Shown: positions 2,780 to 24,855 of the stretch, in pieces
Layout: each line of letters opens with the position of its first letter
Numbering within the stretch: position 1 is the stretch's first letter
IMG/VR virus record: IMGVR_UViG_3300040781_000266
Coordinates: 1 to 26,884 of that record
Length of the DNA: 26,884 nt
DNA from: a virus
Direction: 5' to 3' (one strand)
Notes under the pieces: model-generated
The model's input: only the letters and a program-made list of their open reading frames with translations
Told to the model about the DNA's origin: nothing
Databases searched by the model: none
Program-made: the position numbers and the translations under genes

Positions 2780-3218
2780 AATTCATTTACATTGTAGTGC
2801 ATCTACATGGGGTTCACAGACAATAATCGATGATTGGCACAAAGAGCGAGGATGGTCTGGTTGTGGTTATCATTTTGTAATTTGTAATGGTTGGTTAAAA
2901 CCAGCCGCATTTCTGGAAGCTTTAAATGGTCAAATTGAAATTGGTAGAGATATTGGTTCACCTCCTTCATCAATTAAGAATCATAATGAAGGTGCGATAG
3001 CTATTTGTCTCATCGGTGATAAAGAATTTTCAAATAAACAGTTTACCGCAATGACTGAACTTGTTTTAGAGTTGATTGAAAAATACGAATTAAATATTGA
3101 TGATGTTGTTGGTCATTATGAGCTTTATAATGGTAAAACCTGTCCAAATTTTTCAGTTGAAGATTATAGAGCTTTTCTTAAAGGTGAAGAAAGACAATTC
3201 TCACAGTTCGTTGATTAA
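2763..3218 (+). CDS. Endolysin: T7-lysozyme-like N-acetylmuramoyl-L-alanine amidase
   Basis: A 151-residue amidase_2/PGRP-family enzyme expected to cleave the amide bond between N-acetylmuramic acid and L-alanine in peptidoglycan. Visible zinc ligands are His10 in HLHCSAS, His118 in VGHYELY and Cys127 in KTCPNF. Tyr36 in GYHFVI and Lys125 match the catalytic Tyr46 and Lys128 of T7 lysozyme, and the length matches T7 lysozyme (151). There is no signal peptide, so export would depend on the adjacent holin. An AGGT lies eight bases before the ATG. The gene ends in a four-base convergent overlap with the minus-strand operon. In T7 the homologue also inhibits phage RNA polymerase; nothing here shows that. 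Confidence 0.92.
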   Translation: MRKINKIHLHCSASTWGSQTIIDDWHKERGWSGCGYHFVICNGWLKPAAFLEALNGQIEIGRDIGSPPSSIKNHNEGAIAICLIGDKEFSNKQFTAMTELVLELIEKYELNIDDVVGHYELYNGKTCPNFSVEDYRAFLKGEERQFSQFVD

Positions 3219-4711
3219 ATAACTTTTAATTTAAAATAATCAATACTATTATAATATCTATCTAAATACTCTTGTAAACTCATAAAATATATTTTATCAG
3301 AACTATATATTTTATTATTACGTACATAGACAACATGCATTCTATTCCAATATTTTTTATTATATGGTAATATTGAATAAAGTTTACCGTCACCATACAT
3401 ATATCTAGCTAATATTCCAAAATCGTCACAATTATGGACTATTACTCCACTATTTGCCATAATAAAGTTATGATTATCTTTAACCTCAATATCATAAACA
3501 TTAACTTTATCATTTAAGTTTTCAATTTTTTTAATATGTGTTTCACTTAAATTAGTATAACCATAATTTTTTTTATGAAACGCTTTTGGGCGATCATATA
3601 TTCTCCAAATCGGTTTATTACCAACACCACCATGTTTTAACTGATGATATGGTGCAACAGGATTTCCAATTTTAAAAGATATTTCAACAATAAAATCTTT
3701 TAAAATATCACAAGATGTGGAATAACATTTTTCTTTATTTTCTCTCATATGACCATCACCTAAAAAATATCCATCTAATATTTTTTGAAGTTTTTTAGGT
3801 GGTAAATTATATAATATTTTTGGTGGATTAATATTAAAACTATTTAAAACCATCTCACCTAATATATTATTACGAAAATCAGAGGTTAAAAATTCTATAA
3901 TTGGTAAATTATCACCTTCTCTTATTTTCAAAGAATATTTAATATCATATTTATCTAGTATTGGTATTATATATTTAGGTATATCGTGACCACCTATATA
4001 ACATCGTTTTTTATAATAATAACCTTCAGCCATATAATAACCCAATAAAAAACAAATATCCTCAGTATAATAATCATTATCTTGAATTGTATATGGCATT
4101 TTAGTTATAACTGGCACTTTCCTTTCATTATGGTTATTTATGTCAATGTCTTTTATTTTAGATACTTTATAATCTATATTCCCATGATATATTTTATGAT
4201 CAGGTGTAAAATCGCTATAATTACCAGTTTTATAATGTACTCGTACAATATTTTTTTTACCTTTATTGACGTGATTTAGTATTTCTTTAAATTCATATTT
4301 CTTTAAATTAAAATTATAGGATAAAACTTTATCATTTTTATTTAAATCTTTAATGGGTATATTTCCTCTTTCTGTAATTATTTTTTCATACTCGGCAACA
4401 CAATCTCCATAATAACGTCTTAGAATAATAACAGTTAAAAATCTAGGAAACCAATCAATTTTACCATGCAGTGGGTCTTCTAAATATTCATAAACTCTTG
4501 TTATCCATTGATCTTTTTCTTTTTCTGAATTGGCTTGTTTAACTTTATAAAATTGTTCTTTACCACTAATAGCGCAAAAAAGTTCTCCGTCAAAAAAACC
4601 TTTAAGTATATAAAATATGTTCATAACTAAATCTGTTGTTATGAATCTCAAAAAATAAGAATAAGAAACAGCAATAAAAATAAAAATGCCTTTATAAAGA
4701 GTATACATCAT
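3215..4711 (-). CDS. Transglutaminase-like cysteine peptidase interrupted by an intein
   Basis: A 498-residue ORF with GAGG upstream of an ATGATG start. The host protein (residues 1-103 plus 428-498, 174 residues after splicing) carries the rejoined motif GD-CDDFGILARY, typical of bacterial transglutaminase-like cysteine proteases (GDCxDxA). Its probable catalytic residues are Cys428, His459 (RMHVVYV) and an Asp near 472. The N-terminus has hydrophobic stretches (IFIFIAVSYSYF) that may be a signal or anchor. Residues 104-427 form the intein. Because the intein sits directly before the catalytic cysteine, the unspliced precursor should be inactive. It is the last gene of the minus operon, 19 bases after the kinase gene. 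The biological substrate is unknown. Confidence 0.8.
   Translation of the reverse strand: MMYTLYKGIFIFIAVSYSYFLRFITTDLVMNIFYILKGFFDGELFCAISGKEQFYKVKQANSEKEKDQWITRVYEYLEDPLHGKIDWFPRFLTVIILRRYYGDCVAEYEKIITERGNIPIKDLNKNDKVLSYNFNLKKYEFKEILNHVNKGKKNIVRVHYKTGNYSDFTPDHKIYHGNIDYKVSKIKDIDINNHNERKVPVITKMPYTIQDNDYYTEDICFLLGYYMAEGYYYKKRCYIGGHDIPKYIIPILDKYDIKYSLKIREGDNLPIIEFLTSDFRNNILGEMVLNSFNINPPKILYNLPPKKLQKILDGYFLGDGHMRENKEKCYSTSCDILKDFIVEISFKIGNPVAPYHQLKHGGVGNKPIWRIYDRPKAFHKKNYGYTNLSETHIKKIENLNDKVNVYDIEVKDNHNFIMANSGVIVHNCDDFGILARYMYGDGKLYSILPYNKKYWNRMHVVYVRNNKIYSSDKIYFMSLQEYLDRYYNSIDYFKLKVI
3431..4402 (-). mobile_element. Intein with LAGLIDADG homing endonuclease (324 residues)
   Basis: Encodes residues 104-427 of the peptidase ORF. 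Block A starts with Cys (CVAEYEKIITERGNIPI). Block B has the TPDH motif (FTPDHKIY, His172). Two LAGLIDADG-type helices are visible, LLGYYMAEG and LDGYFLGDG. Block F/G is VYDIEVKDNHNFIM through VIVHN, followed by Cys+1. All splicing residues are present (Cys1, block B His, penultimate His, terminal Asn, Cys+1), so it should splice, and both endonuclease motifs keep an acidic residue. Its target would be the uninterrupted GDC active-site codons of intein-free alleles. Confidence 0.9.
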
Positions 4712-17530: not shown

Positions 17531-18130
17531 ATGGCATCAATTAGATTAACAAATGATCGTAAGAAAGATTTAGTAAATATAATAATAGATGAAAAATTTC
17601 CAAGAGAGTTTTATCAAGATTTAGAGAAAAAATGTTTAGCTCTGGTTATTGAGTCTAATTTATATCAAAAACTAAAAGATAAATATATTGAAATAGAAAA
17701 TATTTTAGGTGATGATTTACAAAATTATAGAATAGCATACTCTGATCATGTAGATATAGAATATAAAAATGGTGATGTAAATAAATATGGTAATATTGAA
17801 GCATATAGATTTAGATTAACTACACCTAATAAATATTTATTATCAAATGAGATATATTCTTATATAGTCATTAGAAAAGGTAATTATAATATGAATGATT
17901 TAAATTTCAAAAAGGCACATGAAATAGTTAATAATCATTATTATGAAAAAAAGCAAATGAAAGATAAAATTTTTAAGACAATAAGCCCTTATACTACTGT
18001 TAAAAAACTTTTAAAAGATATTCCAGAGTTAACAAAATATTTTTCACATTTAGTAGAACATAAACAAGAAATTCTTCCAATTGATCAAAAAGGGATTGAG
18101 TTTCTTAAAATTTTAGTTAAAGGAGATTAA
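17531..18130 (+). CDS. Nmad5-like protein candidate
   Basis: A 199-residue protein with GGGG upstream of the ATG. It opens with IRLTNDRKKDLVNIIIDEKF followed by a helical region rich in Leu, Glu and Lys. A beta-rich centre follows, and the end is TTVKKLLKDIPELTKYF. The N-terminal 'RLTNxxR..iv' start and the C-terminal 'T..kLl...PEl..yf' block resemble the phage family named nucleotide-modification-associated domain 5 (Nmad5), which is often found in phage DNA-modification contexts. This is a memory-based resemblance at low sequence similarity and could be wrong. The neighbours are small phage genes, not recognised modification enzymes. Confidence 0.45.
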   Translation: MASIRLTNDRKKDLVNIIIDEKFPREFYQDLEKKCLALVIESNLYQKLKDKYIEIENILGDDLQNYRIAYSDHVDIEYKNGDVNKYGNIEAYRFRLTTPNKYLLSNEIYSYIVIRKGNYNMNDLNFKKAHEIVNNHYYEKKQMKDKIFKTISPYTTVKKLLKDIPELTKYFSHLVEHKQEILPIDQKGIEFLKILVKGD

Positions 18131-18131
18131 G

Positions 18132-18443
18132 ATGGGATTATACGTTCAAATAGGTGGGGCATCATTTGAAGAAAAATGTAATGGTTTATTAGATTTAGGA
18201 GCAAAAGAGTTCGAAAGACATGAAAAAATATTATTTAATTTATTAATTGGACTACCAAAAAATATACCAATTTGTGTGGTAGATAATGGAAGATTTGCTG
18301 CTGCTGCTGTTGGTTTTAATAGTGATGAAATAAAATTATTTTCAAATACCGAAGATTATAGACCAAAGAGATGGTTTATGATAGAGTATGATCTATTAAA
18401 ATTACATATGGGTGATGAGTTAGATAAATATTTAAACAATTAA
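18132..18443 (+). CDS. 103-residue conserved-looking phage protein of unknown function
   Basis: The ATG follows AAAGGAGATTAAG, overlapping the end of the preceding gene. The sequence has an N-terminal helix region, then a compact core ICVVDNGRFAAAAVGFNSDE followed by DYRPKRWFMIEYDLL. The VVDNG..AAA and RPR/K-W arrangement looks like a recurring small phage protein type, but no function is known to me. It sits directly before the Acb2-like gene with equal ribosome binding sites, so the two are probably expressed together. Confidence 0.65.
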   Translation: MGLYVQIGGASFEEKCNGLLDLGAKEFERHEKILFNLLIGLPKNIPICVVDNGRFAAAAVGFNSDEIKLFSNTEDYRPKRWFMIEYDLLKLHMGDELDKYLNN

Positions 18444-18454
18444 AGGAGATTAAA

Positions 18455-18862
18455 ATGGCTTTAGAAACGTTAAAAGATGTAAAAAAAATTGGTGAATTTG
18501 ATGTAGTTATAATGGATAAATTAAGAGAACAATATCCAGAAAAATTCAATGAATCAGGTGCAATGGATTATAAATGGTTTGAAAAAGAAATAAGACCAAA
18601 TAATTTTGTATATGTTAGACAAGATGTTAATTCAATTGCATTTACTCTACAAAATGGACCGATAAAAGAGAATGGTGTAAATGGTTGTCAGGTAGATACA
18701 ATTATTGAAGCCGCTAAGATGATTATCGAAGGGTTAAATGAAAAATACCCTTGTATAGAGAATATTAATACAATTACTGCATTAAAAGATGCCCTCTATT
18801 GGTTAAATAAGCGTAAACAAGATAGAGAAAACCGTGGTGTTGAAGGTTTAAATGAAAATTAG
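18455..18862 (+). CDS. Acb2-like (Acb2/Tad1 hairpin) anti-defence candidate
   Basis: A 135-residue protein with AAAGGAGATTAAA before the ATG. The C-terminal part forms two predicted helices: about residues 79-98 (TIIEAAKMIIEGLNEKYPC) and 102-126 (TITALKDALYWLNKRKQDR), then NRGVEG. This two-helix pattern, with A..W.N.R..DR..RGVEG in the second helix, resembles Acb2 (T4 Vs.4 type), a hexameric sponge that binds cyclic nucleotides made by CBASS. An additional N-terminal module (residues about 36-75, with FVYVRQDVNSIAFTLQNGPI) precedes it. It lies at the end of the dda operon, overlapping a convergent gene by four bases. The assignment is by pattern only. Confidence 0.6.
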   Translation: MALETLKDVKKIGEFDVVIMDKLREQYPEKFNESGAMDYKWFEKEIRPNNFVYVRQDVNSIAFTLQNGPIKENGVNGCQVDTIIEAAKMIIEGLNEKYPCIENINTITALKDALYWLNKRKQDRENRGVEGLNEN

Positions 18863-19632: not shown

Positions 19633-21309
19633 ATGCCTAAAAAGAAAACATATAAAGAATATATAATTAAAGCTAAAGATATTCATAATAATTTTTATAT
19701 CTATCCAAAAAATCAAGAAATAGAAAATAATAATACAAAAATAAAGATAATATGCCCTAAACATGGAGAATTTGAACAAACTCTAAGGAATCATTTAAGT
19801 GGTCAAGGTTGTCCTAAATGTGGTAATAAAAAAAGAAAAGTAAAAAAATATGAAGATTATTTAATAAAATTTAAAGATGTTTATGGTAATAAATACATTT
19901 ATCCAAAAAATCAAGAAATAAAGAATCATAATAGTATAATTAGTGTTATATGCCCAAAGCATGGTAAATTTAAGGTGAAAGTTCGTTTACATGCTAGCGG
20001 TAATTCTGGTTGTAAAGATTGTTTTAAAGAGAATTTAATAAATACGCATAAAAAAACTTATTATGATTATATTGAAAGATTTAAAGAAATTCATAATAAT
20101 TTTTATATCTATCCAAAAAATCAAGAAATAGATAATTGTAGTGATTATATAGTTATAAAATGTCCTATACATGGAAATTTTAGGCAAAATATACAAAATC
20201 ATTTAAGCGGACAAGGTTGCCCTAAATGTGCTTATGATAAAAGAACCAAAAATAGTTTATTATCTTATAGTGATAATATAGAGGTTTGTAAAAAAGCACA
20301 TGAGAACTTTTATCATTATCCTAAATATCAAGAGTTAGATGATGGTGTTTTTACGAAAATTATGATAAAATGTCCAAATCATGGTTGGTTTAAACAATCT
20401 TTAGATAATCATAAACACGGACATGGATGTTCAAAATGTAATAAATATGGTAAATCTAAAGCTGAAAAAGAAATAGGTGTATTTATTCAAAGCTATGGTA
20501 TTAAAGTAATATATAATAAAAGATTTTCATTTAATTCAAAATCTTTAGAGATCGATGTTTATTTACCTGATTATAAATTAGGAATTGAATACGACGGTAT
20601 ATATTGGCATAATGATCAGTTAAAATCAAAAAATTATCATAAAGATAAAAGTGAGTTTTTTAAGAAAAATTTTAACATAGATATTATACATATATTTCAA
20701 AATGAATGGATTTTAAAAAATAACATTGTAAAATCAATTCTTTTTAATAGGTTAAATTTAAATAAAATTAAAATATATGCTCGTAAGTGTGAGGTTAAAA
20801 TAATCAATAATGATTTATATAAAAAATTAGTTAAAGAGAACCATCTACAAGGTTATATAAGATCAGATAAAATATATGCTTTATATTATGAAAATAAGCC
20901 AGTATATATTATGTCTATGGGTAAATCGAGATATAATAAAAATTATGATTATGAAATATTAAGATCTTTTACTATTAAGCAATTTAGTGTTATTGGTGGG
21001 TTTTCTAAATTAATTAAATTTATAGTAAATGATCTTAAATCAACATCAATTATTTCTTATGTTGATTTAAGATATTTTACTGGAGAAAGCTATCTTAAAT
21101 CAAATTTTAAGTTACTAAAAATATCTCAACCAAATTATTTTTATTTTAAGAAAAATACATTAATTTTACATTCTCGTCTTAAATTTCAAAAACATAAACA
21201 GGAAAAAATATTGGATAATTTTAATCCTAATTTATCTGGTTATCAAAATATGTTGAATAATGATTATCTAAGAATATTTGATTGTGGTAATGCTGTATAT
21301 ATATATTAA
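19633..21309 (+). CDS. Homing endonuclease: zinc-ribbon repeats plus Vsr-like nuclease domain
   Basis: A 558-residue protein. Residues 1-270 contain four repeats of about 65-70 residues, each with YPKNQEI-type and CPxHGxF...H..G.GCxxC motifs (cysteine/histidine sets at about 41-63, 107-130, 177-199, 247-269). These are treble-clef-like zinc units of the DUF723 kind, probably for DNA binding. Then SKAEKEIGVFI and LEIDVYLPDYKLGIEYDGIY with WH form a Vsr-like/EDxHD endonuclease core (about 275-360). The C-terminal 180 residues end GYQNMLNNDYLRIFDCG, common in phage homing endonucleases. There is no ribosome binding site of note before ATG 19633. It is a free-standing mobile gene inserted next to a structural gene. 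Confidence 0.8.
   Translation: MPKKKTYKEYIIKAKDIHNNFYIYPKNQEIENNNTKIKIICPKHGEFEQTLRNHLSGQGCPKCGNKKRKVKKYEDYLIKFKDVYGNKYIYPKNQEIKNHNSIISVICPKHGKFKVKVRLHASGNSGCKDCFKENLINTHKKTYYDYIERFKEIHNNFYIYPKNQEIDNCSDYIVIKCPIHGNFRQNIQNHLSGQGCPKCAYDKRTKNSLLSYSDNIEVCKKAHENFYHYPKYQELDDGVFTKIMIKCPNHGWFKQSLDNHKHGHGCSKCNKYGKSKAEKEIGVFIQSYGIKVIYNKRFSFNSKSLEIDVYLPDYKLGIEYDGIYWHNDQLKSKNYHKDKSEFFKKNFNIDIIHIFQNEWILKNNIVKSILFNRLNLNKIKIYARKCEVKIINNDLYKKLVKENHLQGYIRSDKIYALYYENKPVYIMSMGKSRYNKNYDYEILRSFTIKQFSVIGGFSKLIKFIVNDLKSTSIISYVDLRYFTGESYLKSNFKLLKISQPNYFYFKKNTLILHSRLKFQKHKQEKILDNFNPNLSGYQNMLNNDYLRIFDCGNAVYIY
19681..20131 (+). repeat. 43-base exact direct repeat inside the endonuclease gene
   Basis: The stretch 19681-19723 recurs exactly at 20089-20131, encoding the same I-H-N-N-F-Y-I-Y-P-K-N-Q-E-I segment at the start of zinc-repeat units 1 and 3. 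Nearby codons (HLSGQGCPKC) also match, with only silent changes. This indicates recent duplication or gene conversion between repeat units. Confidence 0.85.
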
Positions 21310-22210: not shown

Positions 22211-23749
22211 ATGCTTTATATACGTAAGAAAAATAATAATTATATTGAACTTGAAAGTGATGATACAAATCTAATTGATAAGATTGAAAAGTATTTTACT
22301 TATAAAAAAGAAGTATATAAAGAAAATAAAGAGACTGGTTATAAAAATAAAAAGATTTATGATATTACTCTGCTCGAAGAAAGACACTTACTGCCTTATG
22401 GTTTATTTTATGAGTTAAAGAGATTTATACGAACTCTTGAATATAATGACGTGTATATTGCTCCTAATCTAAAAATCAAAGGCAGTAAGTTAAATCTTAC
22501 TGATTTAAAGAAAATAGTCAAAAAATGGAATTTACCTAAACCATATTATCCTTTAAGAGATTATCAATATAAAACAATTTTGATGGGTTTTAATCTAAAA
22601 AGATTAACAATAATATCACCAACATCATCAGGTAAAACATTAAGCACATATGGTTTATGTAAGTTATTCATTAATAAGGTTAGAGTTAATAAAAGAATAT
22701 TAATAATAGTTCCACGTACACAATTAGTCGATCAGTTATATAAAGATTTTGAAAAATATGATTTAAATAATGAAGATAATATAAAAAAATATATTAAAAT
22801 GGTTCATTCAGAGTATGATAAGATCATTGAAGATCATCATAAAATCATAGTTGGTACATGGCAGAGTTTTCAAAATTTTGATCCTGATTTTTTTAAAATG
22901 TTTAAATATCTTTTTGTTGATGAGGTTCATAACTCAGCAGATGATAACAAATTGAGTGTTAGTGTAAAGAAGATTATTGAGATAGTACAATCATGTAAAA
23001 ATGCTGTGTATAGAATTGGTTTAACTGGTAGTATCTTTACTGAGGATGAGGTAGAGATACTAAAAAGAAAAACAATAGAAGGTTTATATGGTCGAGTTAA
23101 AGTAGCAACAACATCAAAATATTTACAAGAGAATAAATATGTTGCTAAGGTAAAAATAAAAGGTGTTATATTTGATTATGGTGTATTGAAAAATAAAACA
23201 ATGTCTTATGATGAGGAATTGAAATATTATGCTAAAAAAATGGGTAAAATTGATTATATAATTAAAAAACTTTCTAAAACACATCATAACGCAATAATAT
23301 TATTTAAACAAAGATCATATGGTAAGAAATTATATGATGAATTAACTAAATGTTTCCCAAATAAAGATATTCATTACGTGGATGGTACTATACCAAACAA
23401 AAAGAGGTTATTAATACAAAAACAACTAGACCGAAAAGACAATCAGGTTGTTGTAGGGTCGTTTAAAACTTTTGGTGAGGGTATAAGTATCAATAATATC
23501 TTTTTTGTTTATATGGTTGAGGATGTTTTATCAAAACAAGTCATATTACAGGCAATTGGTCGTGGAATGAGATTATATAAAGGTAAAAATATTGTTATAA
23601 TTTATGATTTAATAGATAAGTTATTTTTTAAAAGAAAAGAACTTTTATATGGGGGTATATGTTATCGTCATAGATATGATCGATTAAAATATTATAAAAA
23701 TCATAGCTATGATTTTAATCTTGTTGGTAATTTTAAAGTTAAAAAATAA
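22211..23749 (+). CDS. uvsW: UvsW-like SF2 helicase
   Basis: A 512-residue helicase close in length to T4 UvsW (503). An N-terminal substrate-recognition region (residues 1-110) includes ERHLLPYGLFYELKRF, matching T4 'NRLLPFGLVGQIKKF'. Helicase motifs: Q/DYQ (RDYQYKTILMGF), Walker A SPTSSGKT (136-143), Ia VPRTQLVDQLY, IVGTWQSF, Walker B VDEVH (236-240), III LTGSIF (271-276), and motifs V-VI GEGISINN and QAIGRGMR. UvsW unwinds branched DNA and R-loops and controls the switch from origin- to recombination-dependent replication. There is only a poor ribosome binding site before ATG 22211. Its stop overlaps the next gene's ATG. Confidence 0.92.
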   Translation: MLYIRKKNNNYIELESDDTNLIDKIEKYFTYKKEVYKENKETGYKNKKIYDITLLEERHLLPYGLFYELKRFIRTLEYNDVYIAPNLKIKGSKLNLTDLKKIVKKWNLPKPYYPLRDYQYKTILMGFNLKRLTIISPTSSGKTLSTYGLCKLFINKVRVNKRILIIVPRTQLVDQLYKDFEKYDLNNEDNIKKYIKMVHSEYDKIIEDHHKIIVGTWQSFQNFDPDFFKMFKYLFVDEVHNSADDNKLSVSVKKIIEIVQSCKNAVYRIGLTGSIFTEDEVEILKRKTIEGLYGRVKVATTSKYLQENKYVAKVKIKGVIFDYGVLKNKTMSYDEELKYYAKKMGKIDYIIKKLSKTHHNAIILFKQRSYGKKLYDELTKCFPNKDIHYVDGTIPNKKRLLIQKQLDRKDNQVVVGSFKTFGEGISINNIFFVYMVEDVLSKQVILQAIGRGMRLYKGKNIVIIYDLIDKLFFKRKELLYGGICYRHRYDRLKYYKNHSYDFNLVGNFKVKK

Positions 23750-24855
23750 TGAAAAAATCTAAGGAAAAACATATACATGAATGTAATTTGCAACATGATT
23801 ATTTTTATAAGTATCCTTTAAATCAAAAATTCATAACTAATAAAAAAATACAAATCATTTGTCCTTTACATGGTGTTTTTTATCAATTTTTATCACATCA
23901 TAAATCTGGTGCAATCTGCCCTACTTGCAACCCAAATATAAAAGATAAAAGTTATCAAGATTATATAAATGAAGCTAAAGTAAAACATGATAATTTTTAT
24001 CACTATCCAAAATATCAAGATATAAAAACGTGTAAAGATAAAATAATGATTAAATGTCCTAAGCACGGATGGTTTAAACAAAGATTATCGTCACATATTA
24101 ATGGTTATGGTTGTCCTAAATGTGGAATTGAAAAATTATCAAAGTCAAGAAAGAAACGTGATTATTATATAAATCTTGCAAATAAAATTCATAATAATAA
24201 ATATGATTATTCTTTAATTAAAAAAGGTATCAAGGCTAATGAGTATGTTAAAATTAAATGTCCTAAGCATGGGATATTTAAACAAAGATTATCATCACAT
24301 TTAGAAGGAAACGGGTGTAAATTATGCTCTAATAATTATTTAATGAGTTTTGATGAACATATTAATGAATGTAAATTAATACATAATGGTAAATATAATT
24401 ATCCAAAATATAATTATCCTAATTTAAGAGCAACATCAAAAATAAAAATTATATGCCCTAAACATGGAGAATTTGAACAAGTTTTATCAGATCATAAAAG
24501 AGGTAATGGTTGTCCACTATGTAAATCATCTAAAGGTGAGATGCGGATTATTAAAATTTTAAAGGAAATGAAAATTAAATATATACATCAAATGAAATTT
24601 AAAGATTGTATATTTAAGAAACAGCTGATTTTTGATTTTTATATACCTGATCAACAAATTTTAATAGAATATAATGGTGAACAGCATTATAATAATAATT
24701 CATTTGGTAACATAAATAATAATAATAAATTTAGATTGAGTCAATTAAGAGATAATATAAAAAAAGATTACGCAAATAAAAATGGGATTAAATTAGTTAT
24801 TATACCATATTGGGATTATGATAATATTGAGAAAATTTTATTAACGAAAATTTAA
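23749..24855 (+). CDS. Homing endonuclease: zinc-ribbon repeats plus PD-(D/E)XK-like domain
   Basis: A 368-residue protein whose ATG overlaps the uvsW stop (TAATG). Four zinc repeats of the CPxHGxF...H..G.GCxxC type lie at about residues 38-60, 103-125, 171-193 and 237-258, like those of the 558-residue endonuclease. The C-terminal domain differs: SSKGEMRIIKILKEM, FDFYIPDQQILIEYNGEQHY (Asp296, Glu307 in a PD-(D/E)XK arrangement), then RDNIKKDYANKNGIKLVIIPY. This matches a small PD-(D/E)XK/Vsr-superfamily nuclease common in phage free-standing endonucleases. It is a mobile gene placed directly after uvsW, with no separate promoter seen. Confidence 0.8.
   Translation: MKKSKEKHIHECNLQHDYFYKYPLNQKFITNKKIQIICPLHGVFYQFLSHHKSGAICPTCNPNIKDKSYQDYINEAKVKHDNFYHYPKYQDIKTCKDKIMIKCPKHGWFKQRLSSHINGYGCPKCGIEKLSKSRKKRDYYINLANKIHNNKYDYSLIKKGIKANEYVKIKCPKHGIFKQRLSSHLEGNGCKLCSNNYLMSFDEHINECKLIHNGKYNYPKYNYPNLRATSKIKIICPKHGEFEQVLSDHKRGNGCPLCKSSKGEMRIIKILKEMKIKYIHQMKFKDCIFKKQLIFDFYIPDQQILIEYNGEQHYNNNSFGNINNNNKFRLSQLRDNIKKDYANKNGIKLVIIPYWDYDNIEKILLTKI

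Follow-up and report, generated by a model that had tools for sequence, protein, structure and literature searches.

The gene at positions 18455-18862 (+) of the window, by which we mean the whole 26,884-base virus record analysed here (25.6% GC), encodes a 135-residue hairpin protein that we take, with a probability of about three in four, to be a Tad1-type signal sponge, judging from its sequence, a predicted structure and analogy with characterised Tad1 proteins. The 135-codon ORF, supported by the ORF call, homologues, profile match and model, begins with ATG, 11 bases beyond the end of the upstream ORF, and ends with TAG at 18860-18862. It is served by a perfect ribosome-binding site, AAAGGAG, and the exact match to the site with its start codon (AAAGGAGATTAAAATG) lies at 18442-18457 (+). 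This is a real gene, chance being ruled out by relatives at 53 loci in IMG/VR, of which the nearest shows 75% identity across almost the whole length, and by clear codon-level constraint (dN/dS ~0.1, from few usable pairs).

Tad1-type chains are the sole significant PDB matches in both sequence and profile searches. With the window protein alone, phmmer places Tad1 8kbb first (2.2e-11), followed by phiKZ gp184 (8y6v, 5e-5) and then CbTad1 chains (~0.01). The corresponding values for a profile of 43 homologues are 8.4e-27, 3e-14 and 1.2e-16, although the profile takes in ten classical-type rows on which the CbTad1 E-value leans; the single-sequence value is free of them. PHROG 2428 matches the protein at 3.9e-20 and is also the best family for the Tad1-annotated protein of Bacillus phage SPG24, and tblastn against named phages matched 42 records, including the Tad1-annotated proteins of SPG24 and of SBSphiJ7, the phage in which tad1 was originally found (PMC12043709). 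PADLOC and NCBIfam gave no match to the window protein, and a Pfam HP1451_C match (E 0.029, 14 residues, below cut-off) was taken as chance.

An AlphaFold2 monomer model built on 43 sequences (mean pLDDT 88) predicts a Tad1-like C-terminal part, comprising a strand, the QNGPIKENGVNG loop, the hairpin and the RGVEG tail, preceded by a divergent N-terminal module that combines strands with a helical insert. The clade-specific module (residues 1-57, 18455-18625 (+)) has no alignment with the classical Tad1 N-terminus and carries predicted strands near residues 11-12, 15-19 and 52-55, a fourth lying at 60-63. Predicted helices 20-26 and 39-49 sit between strands 2 and 3, within a two-helix insert (residues 20-50, 18512-18604 (+)) that is present in 135-residue members and shorter or absent in members of 112-122 residues. 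The strand and QNGPIKENGVNGCQ loop common to Tad1 follow at residues 58-79 (18626-18691 (+)), as placed by the model and by alignment with 8kbb, and here the model is at its least certain, the QNGPIKENG loop having a block mean pLDDT of 62. Hairpin helix 1 (residues 80-97, 18692-18745 (+)) and helix 2 (residues 101-127, 18755-18835 (+)), the latter holding the conserved N103, R120, R124 and R127 of the alignment, are modelled at pLDDT mostly above 90. The RGVEG motif falls at residues 127-131, and the chain ends in the Tad1-type tail GVEGLNEN (18836-18859 (+)), which on sequence comparison is absent from T4 Acb2.

The preliminary description had recognised C-terminal paired helices with R..DR..RGVEG, and these are borne out, the quoted A113, W116, R120, R124, R127 and VEG129-131 all being in place. 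The upstream 75-residue segment that it set apart is likewise real, but the last ~20 residues, i.e. the QNGPIKENG loop and the strand before it, belong to the Tad1 core, so that on alignment the truly divergent portion is residues 1 to ~57. This portion is present and unusual in sequence, but it is not an extra for a Tad1, since a beta-sheet at the N-terminus is normal for that family (PMC12043709). The second ligand or part in oligomerisation that the description suggested for it is conjecture.

In Foldseek searches the top PDB match of the model is CbTad1 8kbf (probability 1.00, E=0.011, TM=0.46 over 80 columns), and the fold match therefore covers less than the whole window protein. The best match in a viral structure library is a full-length 135-residue protein (48% identity, TM 0.88), and several annotated or likely Acb2/Tad1 hairpin proteins come next. 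The predicted order of elements, two strands, the insert, two strands and QNGPIKENG, would fit a diverged Tad1 beta-sheet. An insert-free relative (L041) was tried as a structural bridge; its model is good (pLDDT 86), yet Foldseek gave no Tad1 match, and N-terminal equivalence to Tad1 gains no support from it.

Every residue conserved across the Tad1 core is intact in the window protein. R120, R124, R127, V129, E130 and G131 are at least 90% conserved among the 43 homologues, and Q66, G68, P69, K71, E72, G74, N76 and G77, together with E102, N103, R120, R124, R127 and VEG129-131, are common to classical Tad1-like proteins and to the branch that includes the window protein, here called the MALETLK-type clade. 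Since these family-wide residues are kept, sequestration is the best guess at function, and by analogy the protein most likely acts as an oligomer that mops up Thoeris and/or CBASS nucleotide signals. Characterised Tad1 assembles as hexamers of dimers and blocks both Thoeris and CBASS, holding gcADPR or cyclic dinucleotides in its dimer pockets and cyclic trinucleotides at its trimer interfaces (PMC12043709). On this precedent the window protein would dimerise and assemble into a hexamer, binding gcADPR or cyclic dinucleotides uncut in the dimer pockets and possibly cyclic trinucleotides at the trimer interfaces, and sequestration of these signals would prevent Thoeris and/or CBASS effectors from being triggered in the course of infection. 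The divergent N-terminal module probably shapes the pocket and would thereby shift ligand preference.

Members of the MALETLK-type clade start with the pattern MALETLKG..IGGF.V, the N-terminal module continuing into the two-helix insert and FIYVRHD.NSISF. By a hand-made grouping the MAL.TL start is present in 29 of 31 long or short members, and the classical [GN][AG].H.[YF] motif in none of the 31, against 17 of 24 classical-type rows; the window protein itself is without the G-A-x-H-E-Y motif of classical Tad1. An hhalign comparison of clade and classical Tad1 N-terminal alignments found no similarity (probability 0.2%), and the N-terminal segment alone has no convincing homologue among named phages or in the PDB. 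In a tree built from the C-terminal 78 residues, and hence almost free of the N-terminal label, the clade splits from classical Tad1 with support of 96/95; resolution inside the clade is poor. Two rows placed inside it, L034 and L056, are exceptions in lacking the MALETLK start. Such comparisons indicate that the MALETLK type is a well-supported sister clade of classical Tad1, known here almost only from uncultured phages.

Clade-typical residues extend into the hairpin (Gln79, Asp81, Thr82, Ala87, Ile90, Leu94 and Asn95), and the hairpin aromatic F of classical Tad1 has become Leu94 in the window protein. CbTad1 F82, N92, R109 and R113, which presumably matter for gcADPR binding, would map to Leu94, N103, R120 and R124. 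Because the N-terminus is unalignable, the H-E-Y motif is missing and F is replaced by Leu94, the ligand of the window protein may differ, or binding may be lost. We regard as tentative, at odds well short of even, the further suggestion that the clade is a functionally distinct sponge, taking by way of its different N-terminal module and altered hairpin residues another immune nucleotide than classical Tad1 and Acb2, or having a different preference.

Among 14 full-length 135-residue members, mean column identity is 87% in the loop, 84% in the insert and 73% in the helices, and dN/dS, based on just 10-14 unsaturated pairs of 135-residue members, is ~0.07 for the insert and 0.22 for the hairpin. 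Exact peptide patterns, MDYKWFEK and KENGVNGC among them, were used to gather the loci, and conservation at those stretches is thus partly a collection effect; the insert is still kept in members carrying KENGVNGC (L003, L004 and L010). Three relatives combine the N-terminal module with an altered C-terminal part: L037 (5004-5372) and L038 (736-1104) retain the N-terminal module with a C-terminal half that is without the QNGPIKENGVNG loop and RGVEG tail, and L017 (257-625) retains it with an altered hairpin end and no tail. The N-terminal and C-terminal halves seem able to evolve apart.

The window's adjacent genes are absent beside all 53 viral relatives, and a conserved gene neighbourhood, considered as a clue to function, was found across none of them. 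Other window-gene matches at these loci amount to single distant ones with UvsW (L036), amidase (L040) and dCMP deaminase (L052). The same viral scan, which requires identity over 8 residues and has lower sensitivity for proteins that change quickly, turned up no relative for Ad2, for the upstream ORF, for UvsW or for Dda. With 53 relatives, all without the window's adjacent genes, against none for these four, the distribution fits a mobile gene that travels between unrelated phages, where it would serve as an accessory counter-defence gene. Gene GC tracks its surroundings at each locus, which makes very recent transfer look unlikely.

The window also carries T4-like core genes for a Dda-like helicase, a gp46-like SbcC, a head-tail adaptor and head closure. 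Directly upstream of the Tad1-type gene is a 103-residue ORF (18132-18443 (+)) with no family match and no relative found on viral contigs, and the same gene run holds a 199-residue ORF (17531-18130 (+)) whose similarity to Nmad5 (nucleotide modification associated domain 5) is weak and below cut-off (E=2.6e-4). An intein (Intein_splicing 7e-14, TIGR01443/TIGR01445) that weakly matches LAGLIDADG lies in a 498-residue ORF at 3215-4711 (-). Zinc-finger-like units (DUF723/DUF4379) recur in two ORFs, at 19633-21309 and 23749-24855 (+). These lie one upstream and one directly downstream of UvsW and are possibly mobile endonucleases, and the first has a weak restriction-endonuclease-like match (MTES_1575, below cut-off). 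Hairpin relatives of ~81-102 residues without the RGVEG tail occur on Metabacillus/Bacillus chromosomes (L071-L079) and share the pattern INIKFQTGAID.EGVNGCQVEDVI...; the ORFs flanking one of them (L072, 5977-6237) look chromosomal by eye rather than phage, and it may be a resident, domesticated copy.

Some of these relatives bear on whether a Tad1-derived protein could have ceased to be a Thoeris/CBASS sponge, the hairpin being kept for oligomerisation in another job such as that of a virion component or regulator. This is unlikely: the hairpin protein of Lactococcus phage 1706 is annotated as a 'structural protein', the chromosomal Metabacillus copies have no tail, L037 and L038 have lost the conserved hairpin residues beside a similar N-terminal module, and this module looks more constrained than the hairpin, but the window protein keeps all the conserved Tad1-core residues and the patchy, non-syntenic distribution suits an accessory counter-defence gene.

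At E<=1, PF24729 (Acb2_Tad1_hairpin) picks up 26 of the 43 family members (best 3.7e-8); it is not reported for the window protein itself at the Pfam curated cut-off, the close relatives L003 and L010 falling short of the 27-bit threshold at 25.9 and 25.5 bits. The preliminary description had called the protein Acb2-like, which holds for the hairpin superfamily and fails for the branch. T4 Vs.4 (Acb2), whose sequence comes from the T4 record and agrees with its own structure 7uq2, gives 16% probability in hhalign over 15 columns only. That the protein is an anti-CBASS sponge of the Acb2 type to which an N-terminal module has been added is highly improbable. The shared PF24729 domain and the predicted helical hairpin would suit this view, but no Acb2 chain appears at E<=10 in PDB sequence or profile searches, BLAST finds no match to T4 Vs.4 (E=11), Vs.4 has no QNGPIKENG loop and ends without the RGVEG tail, and the Acb2 N-terminus is a short helix, not a beta-module (PMC12043709); on the direct Vs.4 comparison and the PDB profile search, Acb2 membership was rejected. 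By sequence, the window protein is Tad1-type, not Acb2-type.

A Tad1-type sponge can counter two or more bacterial immune systems simultaneously, and the present copy likely represents this already known type, on a branch that has been little described and whose front half differs. The branch is widespread, and routine annotation would miss it because the members tested do not reach the general Pfam model's cut-off. Should the branch prove to have another ligand, this would hint at host signals not yet matched to any sponge; as it stands, the MALETLK-type branch is a useful but modest extension of the known Tad1 family.

Like Tad1 (8kbb, CbTad1 7uav/8kbe-h, SBSphiJ7/SPG24), the window protein has a strand, a loop, two long helices and an R..R..R.VEG-type tail, with an N-terminal module preceding the hairpin and a similar length (~122-142 residues), and it matches the Tad1 loop pattern Q.GPIKE.G.NG, which is degenerate in CbTad1. 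Unlike Tad1, its residues 1-57 cannot be aligned by profile, lack the G-A-x-H-E-Y motif and contain the two-helix insert, and its hairpin has Leu94 in place of F and Ile90 in place of R, among other clade-specific changes. The same C-terminal Tad1 core is found in phiKZ gp184, called phiKZ Tad1 in the literature, although this protein, unlike ours, is 230 residues long with a long unmatched N-terminal part. The phage delivers phiKZ Tad1 into its host by injection (PMC13282480). Acb2 (T4 Vs.4; Pseudomonas phage p26, 8h2j/8ixz) shares the helical hairpin superfamily but has no N-terminal beta-module, QNGPIKENG loop or RGVEG tail, and no sequence match to the window protein. Minimal Acb2 is a short N-terminal helix and a hairpin in ~90 residues, whereas the window protein spans 135 residues with a strand-containing module and a Tad1-type tail.
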